DNA of 26,008 nucleotides from a virus. The number at the start of each line of letters is the position of its first letter. The first letter of the stretch is position 1. The position numbers were made by a program, and so were the translations under genes. The DNA is taken from the IMG/VR virus record IMGVR_UViG_3300037248_000040, positions 1-26,008 of that record; one strand, written 5' to 3'. Of the stretch, positions 593-23,045 are shown piece by piece. The notes beneath the pieces were generated by a model that was not told the origin of the DNA, did no database searches, and saw nothing but the letters and a program-made list of their open reading frames with translations.

Positions 593-3500
593 TTAGCTGC
601 CTACTGCTGGTGCCTGAGGCGTCCAATAAAGCTGAACCGTGACCCGTTGCCCTGGCGTGCCTGATCCTACTTGTGTGACCTTGCCGTAAAGCGAGTCATT
701 CACGTTGATTTGAATGTTTGAGGCAAAGTCGCCCGATTGTAGAGTAGTCACACCAGGATTTAAGTAGACGGTTCCGATTACTGTTCCCGGTAAACTTGCG
801 CCTTGAGCAAACCTGTAAACGTCAATCGCAATTGGTAAGCCTGTGGGTGGTGTCCATGCGAACGCAAGCCATGATGGACTATTGACCGCCGACGTGTTGA
901 CAATGCCCGCCGTGTTTGCGATGTTGACGTTACAGGTTCCATTGAGTACCACGTCTGCCGGTTGCCCCTGAGTATTTTCTCCGAACAATAGGGTTGCACC
1001 TGGAATTTGAGTTGCTGCCGTCTGCTGTCCATAGACATACAGCATTCTTACAGGGGCTTCTTTTGCTTCCATTCCGTCAACGCCAACTGAATAACCACCA
1101 ATGAGCATCGACTGTTTCAGATAGTTTGCTGTGGGAAGATCGAAAGAAAGATGCTGCGTATAAGATACATTGTTTACTACGGTCTGATCTTGCCCGTTTT
1201 GCCATAGGTTACCCTCGACGATTAAGACGCTTGTCGAGTCCATAATCAAAGGCTGATCGAACGTGTAAGAGGTTGCCGTATTGCTGACAATGTGCGCCGT
1301 AGCGCCCTCATTGGTTCCGGCAATAATTCTGACCATGTTTCCGGCTTCAAAGTTTGCAGTGAGACCACAAAACGGATTCGGCAAGAGCGTTACCTGATCG
1401 ACGTTCAGAGCGTTCTCAATTCCGGCATCAGTGAAGACCGTAGGATTAGATAAATTATCGTAGCCATGAAACGTGACTACGAAGGCATCGCCCGCCAGAG
1501 CTTCACTAGCTGTGCGATCTAACGTAAATGCGCCCGCCGATGCATCAAAAGCAGCGATGTTGTAAGATGCGAAAGGCGTGCTTCCGTTCGGTCTGCCGAT
1601 TAAGATTAACTGCCGTCCTGTCCAGTCATCATGTAGAGTGGCGTCTACGCACTCCGAAGAAACAATCAGGTTGCCGGTTACCGAAGTGATGCCAGCACCG
1701 AGTACGCCACCGTGCAAAAGAGGCTTTACCTTCGGTCTGATCTTTGCGAAATTTCCGTCAGGCATCGCCCAGGTGGTGACAGCAAGCGGACCTGAGAAGG
1801 TAATCGAGGTTACAAGCCCTGAACCTGTCGCCTGAGCGCACATTGCCTGACGATCCGTAGATGCAAACAAGGCCCAATTGCCTACGCCGATTGGTTCAGA
1901 CGGCCACAGAATAGAATCAATCGTGAAGGTGTTAGTATCTGTTCCTGGTGGCGTCACGACTTCGATAACGTTCGAGGCCGCTGTTAAATGCGTAGAGGCG
2001 TCCATCCCGCAAATTGCAACGTAGATTGTCTGACCACCTGGAAGGCTACCGCCCGTCGTACTGGTGGTGACGTTACCGACAAATAACGTAGGTGGCTGTG
2101 ATCCTGAAATGAACGTGTTCACAGTCGCTACGCCCGTCAGTTTGACTTGCGCCTGTACGCTACCATCGGCGAGAAACGTATAGCTCTGCTTTGCGTCGAA
2201 TTGAAATTGATCCGGCCAGAGGGCATCAGCGGAATTTGCTTGAATGTCGTAGGGTTCCCATTCCCCGATAACTTCAGAACTTCCGGCCTGTCCCTCGATA
2301 TAAGCAATCCTCCAGGGAATAAGTGAATCATCACAATGGTTGCCGTCTTTGTCTTCGGTGCGGACACGGAACAACCACACCGAGTCAGCCTCATTGAGCA
2401 CCGAAGGTGAAGCCATTGTGCCGGTGAGCGCCTTCGAGGTTTGAATCTTTGCCGTAGGAATTTCCGGCAAGTCACCAGCGTTGCAAATGACCACCAAGTC
2501 GCCCGTTGAAGGCGTGATCGTCCAGGAATTCGCAAGCGTAAACGCAGTGCCGCCGCTGACTGATGCAATCGGTTGAATGTCACCAACATCAGCACCCGTC
2601 AGGACCACAGCGACGTTACCAGCATCGACCGAAGTAGCGCCCGAGGGGTAGAAGGCGTTCTCTAGGCCGCTGTCCAAGAATCCAGTGCTACTAAATGTCG
2701 CCTTGAAGCACATGGACACCACGTCATTAGGCGCTAGGAGAGTCGTCAGGTCCGGTAATGTGTGGCTGAGTGAATTTCCGCCCACGGTCAATGTAAATGT
2801 GCCGTCCGTTGCTGATGCCGTGCTCGATGCAATCGGGATGAAGATCAAGGGGATTTCCTGCGTAGTGTCAACTTTGGCGAGAACGGCGAGATTGTAACCG
2901 GCCCATTGGTTCAAGGTCATCGAGGCAGACGTAGGCCCTTGAATCGTGATCGTAGTAGACGTGACGCCCGCCACCACTTGCGCCCAAGGTCCACTGTGAA
3001 CCACCTGACGCAACAAGATTGAGAAGTGATCGAAAATTGTATCAATGCCGCCCGGTGTGGTCTGATTGAAAGTCGTGATCGTATGGCTACTTACTGACGA
3101 GTCCAAATCGGCCACATGATGGAACACGTAACCGTCTTCAAACGTGGTCCAACGCCCCATGTAGAGCTTGCCGCCGTCGTCACCCGAACCCCATGTAATG
3201 GCCGTGCTGATCGAACCGGAACCACTACCACCAGAAATAGAAGCGTGTCCGAATGCCTGATAATCGGTGAGCTTGAAAGGTGCGCTTCCAGCATCAGCAG
3301 CCGTCAAAGCTACAACGTACTCGCCATCAGGCAACGAACCGCCCGAAGTGTTGCCGGTGACGATGCAAAGAGGCGATGCAATCTCTTTGTCAAGTACGTT
3401 GATCGGAGATTGACCCTTGATCTGCATTTCAATAATGCCGTTGCCGGATGCGTCTGTGCCGTAGATTGGTTGAAGGCCGAAGGATGCGCCCATGCCTTCG

Positions 3501-7140: not shown

Positions 7141-7782
7141 GTGGAAGGGCTTATGGATATGGCGTCACTTAGGAGTGTCCGACTGGAACCTTTTGTGAAA
7201 CGTTCAGATAATGACTGGTTTCGTTTTCAATTCCGCCAACCGTTGAGGGTGCCGACAAAACGTTGGGTTGCGTGGTTGATGATGAATCCGAGTGTAGCTG
7301 GAACAAAGAAGGCGACAGACCGAACGATTGATATAGTTGCTGGCTTCACCGAGGCGTGGGGTTTTGATGGTTTCGTTGTTGTCAATCTATTTCCATTCGT
7401 CTCGCCACGCTCAGATGAGGAAGGCGAGTTTCATCTGTGGCGAAAAGCTCAAATAGATCGTCATGGTGTCGGATGGTTTAAGGTCACGGAGGAGATGCAA
7501 CGGAACCTTGCGGAGATTGAGGAAGCTGGACGCATGGCGACTAGACGAGTCGCCGCTTTTGGTGGACCCATAGAAACGGAAGATCGAGATTGGGTGAAAG
7601 AGTGCGTAAAGAGGTTCGAGCACCCATCGGATTGCAGCATCAGAGAAAGCCTGAGATGCCTTCGGATCAATTCCGGGACATTCTTACCGGGACATCCGAA
7701 GCCTCGGAAAAATACTCCCATTCCCGAAAGTGCTTACAAGGAGCCGGAACCGTGGAGTCGTAGACCCTGGTGGTTAGCGTGA
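7141..7782 (+). CDS. DUF1643 family protein (accessory gene)
   Basis: This is a 213-residue protein on the opposite strand to the tail genes. Motifs match DUF1643: WLMMNPSVAG (about residues 45-54), D60-R-T, then VVVNLFPF (79-86) and a C-terminal GHPKP. The molecular function of DUF1643 is unknown to me; it is common on phages and plasmids. The GTG at 7141 gives 213 residues. An ATG at 7153 with GGAAGG just upstream is an equally good start (209 residues). The 3' end overlaps the tape measure gene tail-to-tail by 9 bp (7774-7782). It is probably a moron inserted between tape measure and minor tail genes. Confidence 0.75.
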   Translation: MEGLMDMASLRSVRLEPFVKRSDNDWFRFQFRQPLRVPTKRWVAWLMMNPSVAGTKKATDRTIDIVAGFTEAWGFDGFVVVNLFPFVSPRSDEEGEFHLWRKAQIDRHGVGWFKVTEEMQRNLAEIEEAGRMATRRVAAFGGPIETEDRDWVKECVKRFEHPSDCSIRESLRCLRINSGTFLPGHPKPRKNTPIPESAYKEPEPWSRRPWWLA

Positions 7783-16914: not shown

Positions 16915-18537
16915 TTATGCTCCGATCAGTTTTGTATTGGTCATGTACGCTTCGATCACGGCGTAGGTTTTCTCTGTCAGTTCAGTTGCGAGTTCCGAAG
17001 CTCTGCCACGAGTCCAGTTAGGCGCATCATTGGCAATCGACGAAACCACAGTGCCGATAAAATCCATATCGGTCTTGTTCATCGTTGTAAAGCCGTACTC
17101 AGCCGCAAGGAATGTTTGCAGCATCGAGTTAGCGACAGGTTGAAAGGCTTTCTTGATAAACTCGATATCGTTTCCACGGTTCACAGCACGGCCCACAGCG
17201 TCACGAATCAACGGACGGTAAGCATTGAGCATCTGAACTTTTCTCGATGCCACTGGACTACCTGTGTCTACGTTTGTGTCCGGTTCTTTCGTGGTGGTGA
17301 TGTCCGGTTCGTTCTCGACTTGTTCGGCTTCTTTCAAAAGTTGGTCAAGAGATTTGAAAGTACCGTTGACGATTCGCACGGTTCCCACTTCGCCGCCTAC
17401 AGTGTTTTCGTTCAGGCTTCGCAGACAATCATCAAGTGAATAGATGCCAGCGTTACGGAGTGAGCAAAGAGCCGTTGTGACCGTTGCAAAGTCGCCTCGC
17501 TGAAGGTCCATCATGTTGTGAGAGACCGAATAGTTACCGAGGCCCAACAGCTTGAAATTGATTTCTTGCTCCATACAGGCCGCAATTGGCGCAAGACAGT
17601 AACGTGTATAGTCTAGGCCCTGATGCTCGATGTTGTTATTTGTGGAGCGTGTCAGGTCTTGTAAGAGATGCAACGGCACACGATACAACTGTGCGATTTC
17701 TTCTTTCTGAAATTTGCGAGTCTCAAGAAACTGAGCCTCTTCAGGTGGAATGGTCAACTGATGCCACTCCATACCCTCTTCAAGCAAGATCGGTCTTAAT
17801 GCGGTCTCGCCGGTTGCCACTTCATGCAATGACTTTTTGAGGTTTTCGTATGCTTCAGACTCCAAAGAGCCGGGATGTCTGAAGTAGCCGGAAGGTCTCG
17901 CACCGTTGCCGAACAATTGAGCGCCGAACTTCTCAGCAGCAAGGCCGATTCCTACGGCGTTCTTACACATTCCGATTGGTGACACGCTCCGAATTCCATC
18001 GAGCGTGAACGGCATGAAATGTAGAACGTCGTCAGGGTCAAGAATTGCCACGTCACCATTGGGAGTCTGACGAGTAACAAAGATCAGGTTTCCGTTTTGG
18101 TCTCTGTCAGGGTGCGTCTTCTCAGGGTCAAGATATGTCAGCGAGACCACACGATTAGATGAGTCACGATTGATGTACGAGTAGCCCGAACCTGACATGA
18201 GCATTGACGCAATCATTGCCATGCGCCACACCATGCTTGACATGTTTCTGTTAGGACGGCTGTGTAGCAGAGTGTAGAAACGGTGGTCTGTCGCCTTGCG
18301 TGTGGTTCCGTCTGGCATTGATTCGTAGATGTCCAGAGAAACTCTTGAAAGGTCTTGAGCGATAACCTTGATGCAACTGTAAACCGTGCTGAGTCTCAAG
18401 GCTTGCTTCTGATTGACCATTACGCCAGCATCAGAGCGACCAAGACCTAACGACTCGAACAAAGCAGACATTGGTAACAATGGCTGTGCCGGGTCTTCGA
18501 GCGACCAATTAAAAATACGACTGAGTAGCAAACCCAT
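16915..18537 (-). CDS. Portal protein, HK97 family
   Basis: A 540-residue protein. Landmarks are ALRLSTVYSCIKVIAQDLSR, then LHSRPNRNMSSMVWRMAMI, a DPDDVLHFMPF segment, GIGLAAEKFGAQLFGNGARP-SGYFRHPG, YRVPLHLLQDLTRSTNNNIE and YCLAPIAACMEQEINFKLL. These are standard for HK97 gp3-type portals, the dodecameric vertex through which the terminase pumps DNA. The C-terminal 150 residues are longer and more charged than the core family. A strong SD, GAGAGG, lies 9-10 nt before the ATG. The gene follows the small membrane protein gene by 2 nt and precedes the protease by 5 nt. Confidence 0.93.
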   Translation of the reverse strand: MGLLLSRIFNWSLEDPAQPLLPMSALFESLGLGRSDAGVMVNQKQALRLSTVYSCIKVIAQDLSRVSLDIYESMPDGTTRKATDHRFYTLLHSRPNRNMSSMVWRMAMIASMLMSGSGYSYINRDSSNRVVSLTYLDPEKTHPDRDQNGNLIFVTRQTPNGDVAILDPDDVLHFMPFTLDGIRSVSPIGMCKNAVGIGLAAEKFGAQLFGNGARPSGYFRHPGSLESEAYENLKKSLHEVATGETALRPILLEEGMEWHQLTIPPEEAQFLETRKFQKEEIAQLYRVPLHLLQDLTRSTNNNIEHQGLDYTRYCLAPIAACMEQEINFKLLGLGNYSVSHNMMDLQRGDFATVTTALCSLRNAGIYSLDDCLRSLNENTVGGEVGTVRIVNGTFKSLDQLLKEAEQVENEPDITTTKEPDTNVDTGSPVASRKVQMLNAYRPLIRDAVGRAVNRGNDIEFIKKAFQPVANSMLQTFLAAEYGFTTMNKTDMDFIGTVVSSIANDAPNWTRGRASELATELTEKTYAVIEAYMTNTKLIGA

Positions 18538-18763: not shown

Positions 18764-19450
18764 TCAGAACACACGAACACCACGAGTAGCGTAGATGCTT
18801 TTCTTTTTCAGTGGCACGTTCTGAAGCCGTGAAATCGCCATGATGAGCGACACCACGCCGTCAATACGTTTGGTGCTCTTGCCGATGTCAGGCTTCTGTA
18901 CTTTGATGTTGCCGTTAACGTCGCTGTAGATTGTGGTGCAATCAAAATTCCAGCGAAGACAGGGATTCCCGGCATGTACAAATTTGTTGCTGAGGATTGC
19001 CTCTTGCAGTCGCTTCGCCGGTGCTGTCTGTGCTGAGATCGCCTGTGAAGTATCGACGCAAACGAGGCCGCTGTCTTGAAGCTCTGCCACTGTATCACGA
19101 GCGCCCCATTGATCGAACGAAATTTCTTTGATCTTGAACACAGTCGAAAGGTCTTTTATGCGCCTCACGACGTAGCGCCAATCTGTTACTGACCCTGGTG
19201 TAAGCTCTATATGACCTTGCTTTGACCACGAGACATAAGGCACGCTGTCACGAATAGACCGAGCTTCTAGGCCGTCTTCAGGCAGAAAGAACCACGGATG
19301 AGCGTAAATCACACCGTTGATCGACCACGCCAACGTAAAGCAAGTGAGATCGACCACAGCAGCCAAATCGAGACCGCCGTAGCAATCGTAATCTTTCAGT
19401 TGGTCTAGGAATCGTGCGCCTGTAGAGTCTTGCGTCGTGATGATGGTCAC
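18764..19450 (-). CDS. Terminase large subunit, nuclease domain (separate gene)
   Basis: A 228-residue protein corresponding to the C-terminal half of an HK97-type large terminase. CYGGLDLAAVVDLTCF carries the first metal-binding Asp of the RNase H-like nuclease, ISFDQWGARDTVAEL the second site, and RIDGVVSLIMAISR the last Asp. It cuts concatemeric DNA at packaging start and end. No ATPase residues are present; those are encoded by 19850-20818. The start is GTG at 19450, 6 nt after TAAATA, with no SD. The first about 20 residues are a linker not typical of nuclease domains. Together the two halves total 550 residues, a normal full-length terminase. Confidence 0.85.
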   Translation of the reverse strand: MTIITTQDSTGARFLDQLKDYDCYGGLDLAAVVDLTCFTLAWSINGVIYAHPWFFLPEDGLEARSIRDSVPYVSWSKQGHIELTPGSVTDWRYVVRRIKDLSTVFKIKEISFDQWGARDTVAELQDSGLVCVDTSQAISAQTAPAKRLQEAILSNKFVHAGNPCLRWNFDCTTIYSDVNGNIKVQKPDIGKSTKRIDGVVSLIMAISRLQNVPLKKKSIYATRGVRVF

Positions 19451-19456
19451 GAACGA

Positions 19457-19462
19457 TATTTA
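19457..19462 (-). promoter_or_regulatory. TAAATA motif, 6 nt before GTG 19450
   Basis: The minus strand reads CCCTAAATATCGTTC then GTG. It restarts leftward expression for the nuclease half of the split terminase, back to back with a plus-strand TATACT at 19470-19475. Confidence 0.6.
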
Positions 19463-19469
19463 GGGTTGG

Positions 19470-19475
19470 TATACT
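19470..19475 (+). promoter_or_regulatory. Plus-strand -10 box, 6 nt before ATG 19482
   Basis: TATACT differs from the TATAAT consensus at one base. Six nucleotides follow before the ATG, so a transcript would be leaderless. No good -35 is seen at the usual distance. Confidence 0.45.
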
Positions 19476-19481
19476 TCTGTA

Positions 19482-19853
19482 ATGCCAATGACCGAGGAAG
19501 CACAAGCGCTAATGCGAGTTCTTTTGAGGCGTCATGACGAAGTTTGCAAGAATTTCAACGTGACCGGCCCCGATCAAGTAGATGAGGGGATGATTTTACG
19601 GAGCGTTATTTCGTATGGCGTTTTGTGCGAACGTGCTGGAGCACCGTTTCTGACCCGCATTGTCGGACAGTTCCTTGGTGAAGTTGCGGAGTTATGCGCC
19701 GAAAACACTTGGCCGCCGTTGAATTCGATGGCGGTTAACGGGGATACAAATCGCCCTGGTGAAGGGTATGATACGGCTGTGAACTGTTCTTTTGCGGAGT
19801 GGGAGCGAGATGTTAGGCGGTGCATCGCCTTCCCCTTTCCTCCGACGATCTAA
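19482..19853 (+). CDS. Unknown 123-residue protein inserted in the terminase
   Basis: This gene lies on the plus strand between the two terminase halves. Its stop (TAA 19851-19853) overlaps the TAG of the ATPase half (19850-19852) in a tail-to-tail arrangement. The C-terminal half has a strong conserved-looking signature: YGVLCERAGAPFLTRIVGQF, LGEVAELCAENTWPPLNSM, then AVNGDTNRPGEGYD and a C-terminal WERDVRRCIAF. I recall a similar PPLxxxxVNxxTxxPGxGY pattern in uncharacterised bacterial and phage proteins, but I know of no function. It is not an HNH, GIY-YIG or LAGLIDADG nuclease, so it is not an ordinary homing gene. ATG 19488 is an alternative start. Confidence 0.7.
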   Translation: MPMTEEAQALMRVLLRRHDEVCKNFNVTGPDQVDEGMILRSVISYGVLCERAGAPFLTRIVGQFLGEVAELCAENTWPPLNSMAVNGDTNRPGEGYDTAVNCSFAEWERDVRRCIAFPFPPTI

Positions 19854-20818
19854 GCGGCAATTGGCAAGGATGTTTCGCCGTCCCATTTGCAGGCGTCGAA
19901 ATGGTGTAGAGAAATCCAAACGTCCTTTGCATTGACCCATTGATTGAGAAATAGACGGCGAAATTTTGTTTGCTCTGCTGGAATCTTGAGCGCTGTTTCA
20001 CGTTCGGCCCTGAGATCATCGAGCTTGACGAGTGCGCCCAACGTGGGATTGGCAAGAGGCCAGAGGGTTTCATCGGTCCAATCAGCATCTTTGGGAACCT
20101 CGAAGATTAGAGGCAAGAAAGCCGGATCATCTACAACGCCGTCACGGACCTTGCAGGCGTACTCGTATTGCTTGCCACAAATGGAGTGTTCATCGATACC
20201 GGCTGTCGTGATCGTAAGAAACAACGGCTGACGCCTGAGGCCGCTACCAGTCGTCAAGGCGTCGTAAAGCTCTTGCTCGCTCGATGTCCAGGAATGAAGC
20301 TCATCAAAGATCACGCATGAAGGATTCAGACCATGCTTGCTCTTGCCTTCTGAAGACAGCGCCTTGAGCTTGCCGCCATTCTGCCGGTTGATAATGGTTT
20401 TAGTTGACGGAGTGATAGCAAGAATGTCTGACAGGTCCGGTGAAGCATGGATCATGTCAGCGATTGCATAAAAACACAGTGAGGCTTGCTCTCTGTCCTT
20501 CGCAGCAATGTAAATTTCAGGCTGAAGTTCGTTATCGAGCACCAGCATTACCAAAGCAATCGCCGCCGCAATCTGAGTCTTTGCGTTCTTGCGTGCCAGT
20601 GAGAAATAACACTTTCGATAAAGCCTCGTGCCGTCTGGACGCTTCCACCCTAGAAGATTCTCGATAAGCTCACGATGGACAGGTAACAGGGTGAACGGTT
20701 CCGGCCTGCCTGACTTGGTGGTCTTGGTGAGCGTCAGTGATTCGATAAAGGCAATGTCAATGTCAACGTGCTTGCGGTCGAAAAATGCGCCTGATGGTTT
20801 GTTACGTGGTTCCTTCAT
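19850..20818 (-). CDS. Terminase large subunit, ATPase domain (separate gene)
   Basis: A 322-residue protein with the N-terminal motor half of an HK97-type terminase. Walker A is the variant SLARKNAKT (about residues 73-81). Walker B is PSCVIFDELHSW (about 165-176), followed by the coupling motif region LFLTITTAGIDEHS. It ends at FDACKWDGETSLPIAA, exactly where an intact protein would pass through the linker into the nuclease domain. It pumps DNA through the portal. Its start overlaps the small terminase gene by 17 bp, so translation is probably coupled; no SD is clear. It must act with the separately encoded nuclease domain. Confidence 0.88.
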   Translation of the reverse strand: MKEPRNKPSGAFFDRKHVDIDIAFIESLTLTKTTKSGRPEPFTLLPVHRELIENLLGWKRPDGTRLYRKCYFSLARKNAKTQIAAAIALVMLVLDNELQPEIYIAAKDREQASLCFYAIADMIHASPDLSDILAITPSTKTIINRQNGGKLKALSSEGKSKHGLNPSCVIFDELHSWTSSEQELYDALTTGSGLRRQPLFLTITTAGIDEHSICGKQYEYACKVRDGVVDDPAFLPLIFEVPKDADWTDETLWPLANPTLGALVKLDDLRAERETALKIPAEQTKFRRLFLNQWVNAKDVWISLHHFDACKWDGETSLPIAA

Positions 20819-21242
20819 TCTTTGCTGCTAAGAGCGTTGCCAATTGCGATGTCTTCGGCTGTTCTCTTTTCAATCCGAGGCGTAAGCGTGCTGCCGGTGT
20901 TGCGCCGATCATGTCAAGCCACTTCTGAAGGTCTCGTGCATAGCGTGTGATTTCCTTCGAGCATTTGAGCTTGTCTGCGAGGCTTTCCGCCAGTGCCTCA
21001 CGTTCTAACCACTCGCCGCAAGAAACAACAGTGTGCGCTGTGATTGCGATGGCGTTGCAGTCCAGTTGCTTGACAGGGACACCAGCGCCGATAAGTTCAG
21101 CCACCAGTTTTTTGAATTGAGCCTTCGCTTTTTTTGAAAGAAATTTTGGTGCGTCGATGTGTTCAGGCGCATCTATGAAAGTGCCACCTTCACGTTCAGC
21201 ACGAACGCTTCCAGGTTGTCTCAATTTTCCTTTTAATCCCAT
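20802..21242 (-). CDS. Terminase small subunit (P27-like)
   Basis: A 146-residue protein beginning MGLKGKLRQPGSVRAER, typical of small terminases of the P27/Terminase_4 type. PKFLSKKAKAQFKKLVAELI-GAG, LDCNAIAITAHTVVSCGEWL and the helical C-terminus agree. It recognises the packaging start site and presents DNA to the large subunit. The same frame is open up to a TTG at 21401, overlapping the preceding gene, but those 53 extra residues are low-complexity and unlike the family, so ATG 21242 is preferred. A perfect GGTAAATTTTACC palindrome lies 9 nt upstream. The 3' end overlaps the ATPase gene by 17 bp. Confidence 0.8.
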   Translation of the reverse strand: MGLKGKLRQPGSVRAEREGGTFIDAPEHIDAPKFLSKKAKAQFKKLVAELIGAGVPVKQLDCNAIAITAHTVVSCGEWLEREALAESLADKLKCSKEITRYARDLQKWLDMIGATPAARLRLGLKREQPKTSQLATLLAAKNEGTT

Positions 21243-21251
21243 TTGTATATC

Positions 21252-21264
21252 GGTAAAATTTACC
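21252..21264 (-). repeat. 13-bp palindrome before the small terminase gene
   Basis: The minus strand reads GGTAAATTTTACC, a perfect dyad around one central base, 9 nt before ATG 21242. It occupies the place of the TAAATA motif in other genes and could be an operator or a variant promoter element; it also lies in the usual cos/pac neighbourhood. Confidence 0.4.
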
Positions 21265-21390
21265 TTTTCAAATTTGTAAACGCTCGCATAGCCCCGCCGT
21301 GGTGGTCTGCGGCCCTGTGGTACCCAAGGATTTTCGGTACCCCTGCCTTGGGAACCTTGCGCCACGGCCTGAGAGCTTCTTTCGCCCTGG

Positions 21391-21675
21391 TTAGTTGCCA
21401 AACATCGGAGTCATGAACGAAACCGTTGCTGTGCTGGTGGCAGTGATACCGTAGATCGGCGAACCTACCGAACCGTCACAGGATGGAATCGTGATCGATG
21501 CGCCTGACGCTACCTTGATGCCACCCGTAGCCGTCGTGTCCGCTGTGACCGATGCACCACCGAAGTAAACCGCCGCCGATCCATTGTTGACGAGTAGCAC
21601 GCCGCTGTTGGTATTGGGTGTGCAAATCAACGTTGCCGTGCTCGATACTGAAACCGTTCCTTGTGAGTAAGCCAT
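21391..21675 (-). CDS. Small beta-rich protein, possible virion decoration
   Basis: A 94-residue protein rich in S, T, G, A and V with no charged helices. The pattern GVLLVNNGSAAVYFGGASV-TADTTATGGIKVASGASITI...PIYGITATSTATVSF resembles small beta-sandwich proteins that occur in many tailed phages, often in the head module. A decoration or fibre-base role is possible, but the function is not established. Here it is upstream of the terminase genes and not next to the capsid gene. The start is 5 nt after TAAATA, with no SD. Confidence 0.6.
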   Translation of the reverse strand: MAYSQGTVSVSSTATLICTPNTNSGVLLVNNGSAAVYFGGASVTADTTATGGIKVASGASITIPSCDGSVGSPIYGITATSTATVSFMTPMFGN

Positions 21676-22058: not shown

Positions 22059-22349
22059 ATGAACACCGAAAAACGAAGCGCCTATTTTGTCGCCCTCGAT
22101 ATGAGTGATAAAGTTCGTGTGGAGGAGCGGTTGACGGAAATGGGCGAGTGGATCGAAATGACTCCCGGGTCCTACCTGCTCGAAATAAAGGGTGACAATT
22201 CTGGAGAAATTCTTTTCGAGCTTGACCCTCGCCGATTAGATGCGGTGAAGCGGTATGTCGTGCTTCAGGCTGAAACAGCGATATGGATTCCATTCGGCGA
22301 CGAAAGAGACGCTCGAATAGAAGCAATGAAAAATCGAACGAATAAGTGA
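22059..22349 (+). CDS. Small protein resembling the Cas2/SinR-like fold
   Basis: A 96-residue protein on the plus strand, first of a two-gene cassette. The order strand-helix-strand-strand-helix-strand can be read: SAYFVALDM, DKVRVEERLTEMGEW, GSYLLEIK, SGEILFELD, then KRYVVLQAETAIWIPFG. This recalls the small ferredoxin-like family annotated as SinR or Cas2-like, including the Y-x-V-x-x-D opening and the C-terminal W-x-P-F/K segment. There is no cas1 and no array here, so a CRISPR role is not implied. The fold call is by eye. It is followed after 12 nt by the DUF3800 gene, probably in one transcript. Confidence 0.5.
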   Translation: MNTEKRSAYFVALDMSDKVRVEERLTEMGEWIEMTPGSYLLEIKGDNSGEILFELDPRRLDAVKRYVVLQAETAIWIPFGDERDARIEAMKNRTNK

Positions 22350-22361
22350 GATTTTGAAGTT

Positions 22362-23045
22362 ATGGCAATTCGTCATGCTGCATTCGACGAAAGCGGCAAA
22401 GCAGACAGAGAAAAGGTCATCTTCGCCGGTTTGATTTCGACGCCGCAAGAGTGGTTTTCTCTCAATCAAAAATGGATAGCCCTACTTGCTCCGCACGGCC
22501 TTCAGTATTGGCGAACATCGGATGCGGCCCGCCTGAAGGGGCCTTGTGAGCGCTTTCGTGGACATCGAGAGGAATTACGCACGCTGACGAGAGAACTTGC
22601 AAATGTGATTTGTGAGCACGCCGAAGGCGGTACGATTCACATCATTACGATGGACTTGTACAACGCCCTGAGTCCCGAAAAGAAGGCGATTTTGAAGGAC
22701 CCGTATTATGCCGCATTTGACGAAGGTCTGATGGCGCTGGCCTTTGGTCCACACAGTAACGCCGACGACACCCTAACGCTTGTAGCCGACGACTCGGATG
22801 AATATTCTAAAGAAGCGGTCACACGCTATCGACGGTTCAAGCAGTTGCATCAGGAAAACGCCCGAATGATTGCCGGTTTCTGTTTGCATGACGACAAAGC
22901 CTATCCGCCGTTGCAGGCTGCTGATCTCTTTGCGTACTGCCAACGTAGAAGGGCAGAAGGAACGCTGAACGGGATATGGGCGGAAGTCATGACGAAATTT
23001 GATGAGACCTTCACGGACATAGCAAGAGCCGACATCACGGCATAG
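22362..23045 (+). CDS. DUF3800 family protein
   Basis: A 227-residue protein. HAAFDESGK (Asp9, Glu10) opens the fold, followed by an aGL...W strand, LVADDSDEY (Asp143-144) and the C-terminal PPLQAADLFAYCQRR. These are the DUF3800 landmarks; acidic residues at the ends of strands give it an RNase H-like look, and a nuclease role has been suggested for the family, but no function is proven to my knowledge. DUF3800 genes are frequent in mobile elements and defence islands. It lies 12 nt after the small Cas2-like gene and faces the glycosyltransferase gene with a 23-bp gap. Confidence 0.8.
   Translation: MAIRHAAFDESGKADREKVIFAGLISTPQEWFSLNQKWIALLAPHGLQYWRTSDAARLKGPCERFRGHREELRTLTRELANVICEHAEGGTIHIITMDLYNALSPEKKAILKDPYYAAFDEGLMALAFGPHSNADDTLTLVADDSDEYSKEAVTRYRRFKQLHQENARMIAGFCLHDDKAYPPLQAADLFAYCQRRRAEGTLNGIWAEVMTKFDETFTDIARADITA

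Follow-up and report, generated by a model that had tools for sequence, protein, structure and literature searches.

The large terminase subunit (TerL) of HK97 is described as a single chain whose ATPase and nuclease domains are connected by a short linker and a beta-strand, with D302, D388 and D471 as catalytic residues and with the connecting strand speculated to switch between cutting and translocating (PMC9410871). In phi29 gp16, the ATPase domain and the vestigial nuclease-fold domain, which form one chain, can be studied apart, and the linker promotes oligomerisation (PMC7672431). Elsewhere, the terL coding sequence is interrupted by introns or inteins and rejoined by splicing (PMC11878797, PMC3322345, PMC7156551). 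The ATPase and nuclease of TerL are usually treated as one chain, and a clade in which this chain is cut, in many arrangements, shows where separation is tolerated. We found no report of a separately encoded TerL ATPase and nuclease in the open-licence literature. Some actinobacteriophages have TerL ATPase and nuclease annotated as separate genes, which would amount to a two-gene TerL, and no such gene names occurred in 60 records taken at even steps from 1,155.

Two open reading frames for one terminase

The stretch of DNA analysed here (the window) comprises the 26,008 bp of one virus record. Its open reading frames (ORFs) and profile matches were read as a minus-strand late gene cluster in the order small terminase (TerS) candidate, terL ATPase, plus-strand ORF, terL nuclease, 67-aa ORF, portal, Clp-like protease and capsid (Table 1). 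The order TerS candidate, TerL, portal is shared with HK97-type phages, as are both TerL domains and their catalytic residues (PDB 6z6d; PHROG 9; Pfam PF03354 and PF20441). The initial annotation had given the coordinates, lengths and start codons of the two halves correctly. Its description of an intact ATPase half that ends at the inter-domain linker also held, with a Walker A-like motif and VIFDELH, which we take to be the Walker B/catalytic Glu motif, both in place. The nuclease half, likewise described as intact with its own GTG and TAAATA motif, has three predicted catalytic aspartates, D28, D113 and D197; by hand count of the alignment, these fall at chain positions 312, 398 and 481 of 6z6d, a constant 10 above the published HK97 residues.

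Table 1. Positions of features in and around the divided terL of the window
Feature	Position	Strand	Basis
DUF1643 gene	7141-7782	+	1.4e-11
Portal gene	16915..18537	-	Pfam Phage_portal 4.7e-91
terL nuclease gene, 228 aa, GTG start	18764..19450	-	Pfam TerL_nuclease 2.4e-22
Predicted catalytic D197	18860..18862	-	aligned to HK97 D471
Predicted catalytic D113	19112..19114	-	aligned to HK97 D388
Predicted catalytic D28	19367..19369	-	aligned to HK97 D302
Nuclease N-terminal segment, residues 1-22	19385..19450	-	AlphaFold2 model: helix 9-18
TAAATA gene-start motif, 6 nt before nuclease GTG	19457..19462	-	motif count
Extended -10-like TGGTATACT, just upstream of plus-strand ORF	19467..19475	+	sole match in window; at least 1 in 31/100 shuffles
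Inserted gene, 123 aa, weak ATL/MGMT-like match	19482..19853	+	homologs, profile search
ATPase C-terminal tail after W312 (DGETSLPIAA) and stop	19850..19882	-	alignment
terL ATPase gene, 322 aa	19850..20818	-	Pfam TerL_ATPase 5e-30; PHROG 9 3.3e-97; HK97 TerL 6z6d 5.7e-36
VIFDELH, residues 169-175	20294..20314	-	sequence
Walker A-like motif ARKNAKTQ, residues 75-82	20573..20596	-	sequence; invariant in 4/4 split ATPases aligned
Small terminase candidate	20802..21401	-	PHROG 83 1.5e-9; Pfam Terminase_4 below cut-off
DUF3800 gene	22362-23045	+	1.5e-7

Positions 2-85 of the Pfam TerL_nuclease profile match within the ATPase ORF and positions 92-282 within the nuclease ORF, and the PHROG 9 profile breaks off and restarts at one position, 470, across the two. 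Alignment to intact TerLs places the break within the linker that joins the domains, between HK97 chain positions 296 and 307. The ATPase TAG, which overlaps the TAA of the plus-strand gene (19850-19853), is separated from the nuclease GTG by 399 bp, and the in-frame stop just upstream of this GTG is the TAA of TAAATA. The junction comprises 12 + 22 residues in the window, against about 13 in intact relatives; the earlier statement that nothing was lost is therefore true of the domains, which are whole, and does not extend to the junction, which is more than a cut linker. Modelled alone with AlphaFold2 (pLDDT 84.4), the nuclease half has a confidently predicted N-terminal helix at residues 9-18, and the best Foldseek match of the model is 6z6d (E 1e-17), suggesting that this half folds by itself.

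The window thus encodes a packaging ATPase domain with Walker A and B motifs and an RNase H-like nuclease with three aspartates, as in HK97-type TerL, but on separate ORFs rather than in one polypeptide, and the same separation was found in 17 contigs, one of them the window's twin. Relative to the HK97 chain (PMC9410871), that of the window is broken at the inter-domain linker, and the nuclease carries a new, predicted N-terminal helix. In contrast to the account of phi29 gp16 (PMC7672431), the nuclease is encoded by a separate gene and retains its active site. The discontinuous coding sequence recalls intron- and intein-interrupted terL, but no element of the kind that rejoins those genes by splicing was found here.

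A second contig, IMGVR 3300037235_000151 (metagenome 3300037235), is 100% identical to the window over 6,812 bp, split included, and an artefact of a single assembly is for this reason an unlikely source of the split, although the sample of this twin may be related. A second intact terL, raised in the initial annotation as a possible objection to a two-piece enzyme, was found nowhere in the 26,008-bp record, which was searched whole and may be a fragment.

Split terL genes among relatives

Relatives were gathered by a portal profile scan, an ATPase profile scan and, later, a nuclease profile scan. Each locus was scored by whether the ATPase and nuclease halves lie in one open frame, with the copies of the window (L001, L004 and L009) excluded. 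An ATPase match was present in 230 loci, and a same-strand nuclease match was also present in 218 of these and absent in 12. The 218 two-half loci comprised 200 with one frame and 18 that were split; without L176 (the L108 contig again) and L237, these 18 rows represent 16 contigs, including the twin (L002). All 18 split loci have an ATPase more than 45% identical to that of the window, a range that also holds 38 intact loci, many of them near-copies of one group, whereas below 45% there were 162 intact loci and no split ones. The nuclease scan added 68 loci (59 intact, 8 split and 1 without an ATPase match); seven of the eight split loci were contigs already found, and the new one, L270, lies in a 97-kb contig. 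The split total thereby came to 17 contigs from 15 metagenome ids. No second TerL was detected in the 15 split records searched whole, each of which has one ATPase, and the L270 record likewise has one. Two Acidobacteria MAGs hold portal relatives (48%), which hints at Acidobacteria as the host. No split TerL was found in 396 Acidobacteriota genomes, four of which gave matches (E 1e-60) at five places, in open frames of 526-703 aa.

The closest relatives found, IMG/VR contigs with ATPases 62-68% identical to that of the window, also encode terL in two ORFs, which no other gene separates, and L108, L097, L117 and others are likewise split without an inserted gene. The initial annotation had attributed the split to the opposite-strand gene and proposed comparison with close relatives to date the insertion; this comparison reverses the order of events, since the sister contigs L108 and L180/L181 are already split and insert-free. 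The split is therefore older than the plus-strand gene, which entered an existing junction, only in the window's lineage. What emerges is probably a two-gene TerL clade, with no earlier report found in the open-licence literature and with the inserted gene as a secondary event.

After removal of the duplicate L176 from the 18 rows, 16 of the 17 split TerLs break at one domain junction, the exception being L237, and catalytic residues are retained in 14/14 nuclease rows. Estimates of dN/dS were 0.034/0.807 for the ATPase and 0.124/1.83 for the nuclease in the pair L097/L179, and 0.008/0.251 and 0.008/0.283, respectively, in the pair L182/L184; judged from these values, both halves are under purifying selection. 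This conservation suggests that the two proteins act together as a motor in two pieces, and the earlier proposal of a two-piece packaging enzyme gains support from a split that appears common to a whole clade. In L237, the break lies inside the ATPase part and may reflect error or decay. In Paenibacillus phage PG1 (L332), terL lies at 1455-3124 without an annotated CDS in the record, and a frame change (1757-1802) falls inside its ATPase part, away from the domain junction.

The form of the junction differs among the contigs. In seven of them (L177, L097, L179, L183, L182, L184 and L223), the two genes overlap, with the nuclease ORF in the -1 frame of the ATPase gene; L108 and L188 share an eight-nt overlap (ATGNNTGA), L189 has a 19-nt overlap with a GTG start, and L180 and L181 have a TAATG junction. 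In L178, an in-frame amber stop is followed by GTG. The nuclease start lies downstream of the ATPase stop in L270 and L185, the latter with a second WDAC-like stretch, and in L117 an ATG lies within the ATPase end, with its own DWDKC stretch. The window's junction is the 399-nt form with a plus-strand gene. The relative frame of the halves varies, being 0, +1 or -1. The second WDAC-like ATPase-end stretch carried by the nuclease ORF itself in L117 and L185 looks as if it came from duplication or swapping of the junction.

ATPase and nuclease trees were built from 31 rows, 30 of them different, with L270 left out. In both trees, the split label required two changes (shuffled mean 10.7), one for 14 rows including the window and one for the pair L188/L189. 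The nuclease tree unites the 14 split rows in a single clade (96/94); the ATPase tree has an open fork at which L185/L223, the remaining 12 rows and the intact L187 meet. The window, L180/L181 and L108 group together in both the nuclease (100/98) and ATPase (84/87) trees. These topologies point to two origins of the split, one in the window's clade and one in the further pair. The pair L188/L189 has a second split at the same junction, apparently independent, and lacks the N-terminal segment of the nuclease.

Nuclease start, N-terminal segment and competing explanations

In the overlapping relatives, the nuclease N-terminal segment is the -1-frame reading of the conserved ATPase WIPxxxWDAC codons, and a DxxxxxGR-like peptide results from this reading even in several intact relatives. 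Constraint on the overlap was tested in two sequence pairs. Synonymous change in the ATPase frame was suppressed within the overlap, affecting 3/31 codons there versus 102/285 in L097/L179 (p 0.0017), and 0/24 versus 48/302 in L182/L184 (p 0.019), in keeping with an independent nuclease start. For the part upstream of WDAC only, the counts were 1/17 (p 0.007; equal windows as low, 0/270) and 0/10 (p 0.18; 90/294), respectively. In this part, the two pairs show four differences in all, every one of them silent in the nuclease frame, and three of the four alter the ATPase.

The segment is retained in contigs without the overlap, where shuffles scored as high in 14/20000 (window), 21/20000 (L108), 10/20000 (L180), 0/5000 (L185) and 16/5000 (L270) trials; for L178, it was not significant (1637/20000). 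In L185, the ATPase reading of the segment's DNA is destroyed (SIPPMQSAVRLL, no longer an ATPase end) and the nuclease reading is kept. Because the segment is kept without overlap and the ATPase reading is lost in L185, selection appears to act on the peptide that the nuclease frame encodes, and because five contigs, the window among them, keep it without overlap, the nuclease is most simply read as a separately started protein. A search of the ATPase tail for remnants of the nuclease start was not significant in the window, where 573/2000 shuffles scored as high, nor in L178 (1458/2000), L108 (1601/2000) or L180 (1148/2000); the corresponding counts were 106 for L185, 54 for L117 and 232 for L270.

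We consider it probable that an ancestral, ordinary terL underwent a frameshifting change in the inter-domain linker, after which the ATPase ORF would have stopped shortly past WDAC and the nuclease would have been translated, in the -1 frame, from a start within the ATPase gene. This internal start would have created a new nuclease N-terminal segment from out-of-frame WIPxxxWDAC codons. In several lineages the overlap would later have been lost and the segment retained, and a cargo gene on the plus strand would then have entered the junction in the lineage of the window, where the nuclease starts behind the TAAATA late-gene motif. The two subunits would assemble at the portal without a covalent link and divide the labour, with the ATPase driving translocation and the nuclease cutting. 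A further extension, possible but doubtful, is that the N-terminal helix serves as a docking element in place of the linker, that the number and timing of motor and nuclease subunits at the portal can vary, and that the junction tolerates cargo.

Programmed ribosomal frameshifting could instead produce a one-piece TerL from the overlapping ORFs, so that the motor would not really be in two pieces; a single -1 shift just past WDAC in the seven overlapping contigs would give about the normal length. However, no -1 slippery heptamer (X_XXY_YYZ) was found in any of these seven junctions, the relative frame changes from contig to contig, and in the window the halves are separated by stops and a gene. 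A fusion would also lack the out-of-frame N-terminal segment, yet this is conserved without overlap, and we regard frameshifting as improbable. Slightly less probable again is a reading of the split TerLs as pseudogenes in decay, or as products of sequencing error, in defective proviruses: most of the contigs are short fragments and none is marked as a complete genome, but the recurrence of the break at one domain junction, the low dN/dS of both halves, the retained catalytic residues and the usable starts at the junctions, such as ATGNNTGA and TAATG, speak against it.

Disruption of a whole terL in the window's phage by the plus-strand gene or by a mobile element would account for a gene lying exactly at the junction and for halves in one frame; with sister contigs already split without the gene, this is very unlikely. 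Introns are known in phage terL (PMC11878797, PMC3322345), and a self-splicing intron might rejoin the halves in RNA, but the window has no Rfam match at the gathering threshold and the halves overlap or abut in insert-free relatives, making this the least credible of the alternatives. An intein was rejected, as the insert ORF has no Pfam domain, and the statement of the initial annotation that the insert is neither an intron ORF nor an intein is supported. If the two-protein reading is correct, the split clade offers ready-made pairs for testing the need for a covalent link in initiation, translocation and termination, and a case in which the origin of a protein segment from an overlapping frame in an essential gene, and its survival after the overlap was lost, can be followed.

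The plus-strand gene and the TAAATA motif

The plus-strand ORF is a real gene, as the initial annotation had it for the roughly 400 bp between the halves, because GC skew flips across it and it has plasmid homologs (E 4e-4). These homologs, on Enterobacter plasmids, are 37-49% identical over 35-60 residues and lie near dcm and DUF4928 genes. Further homologs were found in one virus contig (L010) and, by profile, in 3/396 Acidobacteriota genomes; there was none in 50,697 phage records, and tblastn with the plus-strand protein over 263 loci (before L270 was added) gave no match in any other split contig. The closest PDB profile, 2kif of the O6-methylguanine-DNA methyltransferase family, matches weakly (E 0.12), which makes an alkyltransferase-like (ATL/MGMT) function a lead only, and the model of the protein (pLDDT 47) was unusable. 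The single extended -10-like match in front of the gene does not exceed chance expectation, a sigma-70 scan found no site there, and no terminator-like site of its own, as in a moron, was found within 19482-19900. A 12-nt inverted repeat flanking the insert (83% complementary, 19483-19494 / 19855-19866) was set aside; the 701 bases hold two such pairs, this being one, and the TAA of TAAATA would fall outside the element. In L010 (2917-4272), the homolog adjoins a 260-aa ORF of DUF3800-like appearance, and the window also has a DUF3800 gene.

TAAATA occurs 13 times in the window (for example at 19457, 21681, 22029 and 18751), always on the minus strand (5.2 expected; 0/100 shuffles with as many), and by hand reading 11 of the 13 copies lie 3-7 nt upstream of a start codon. 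It is sense-only in L108 (10 to 0) and L180/L181 (7 to 0) and nearly absent from the overlapping, higher-GC contigs. We infer a late promoter or start signal; the motif looks like a late promoter for near-leaderless mRNAs or a non-SD start signal, and after the insertion it would provide a separate start for the nuclease half. Two more cargo-like plus-strand stretches, with the DUF1643 and DUF3800 genes, interrupt the minus-strand late cluster, and the ORF preceding the DUF3800 gene (22059-22349) has no family match. All three plus-strand stretches start back to back with a minus-strand TAAATA (7120, 19457 and 22029).
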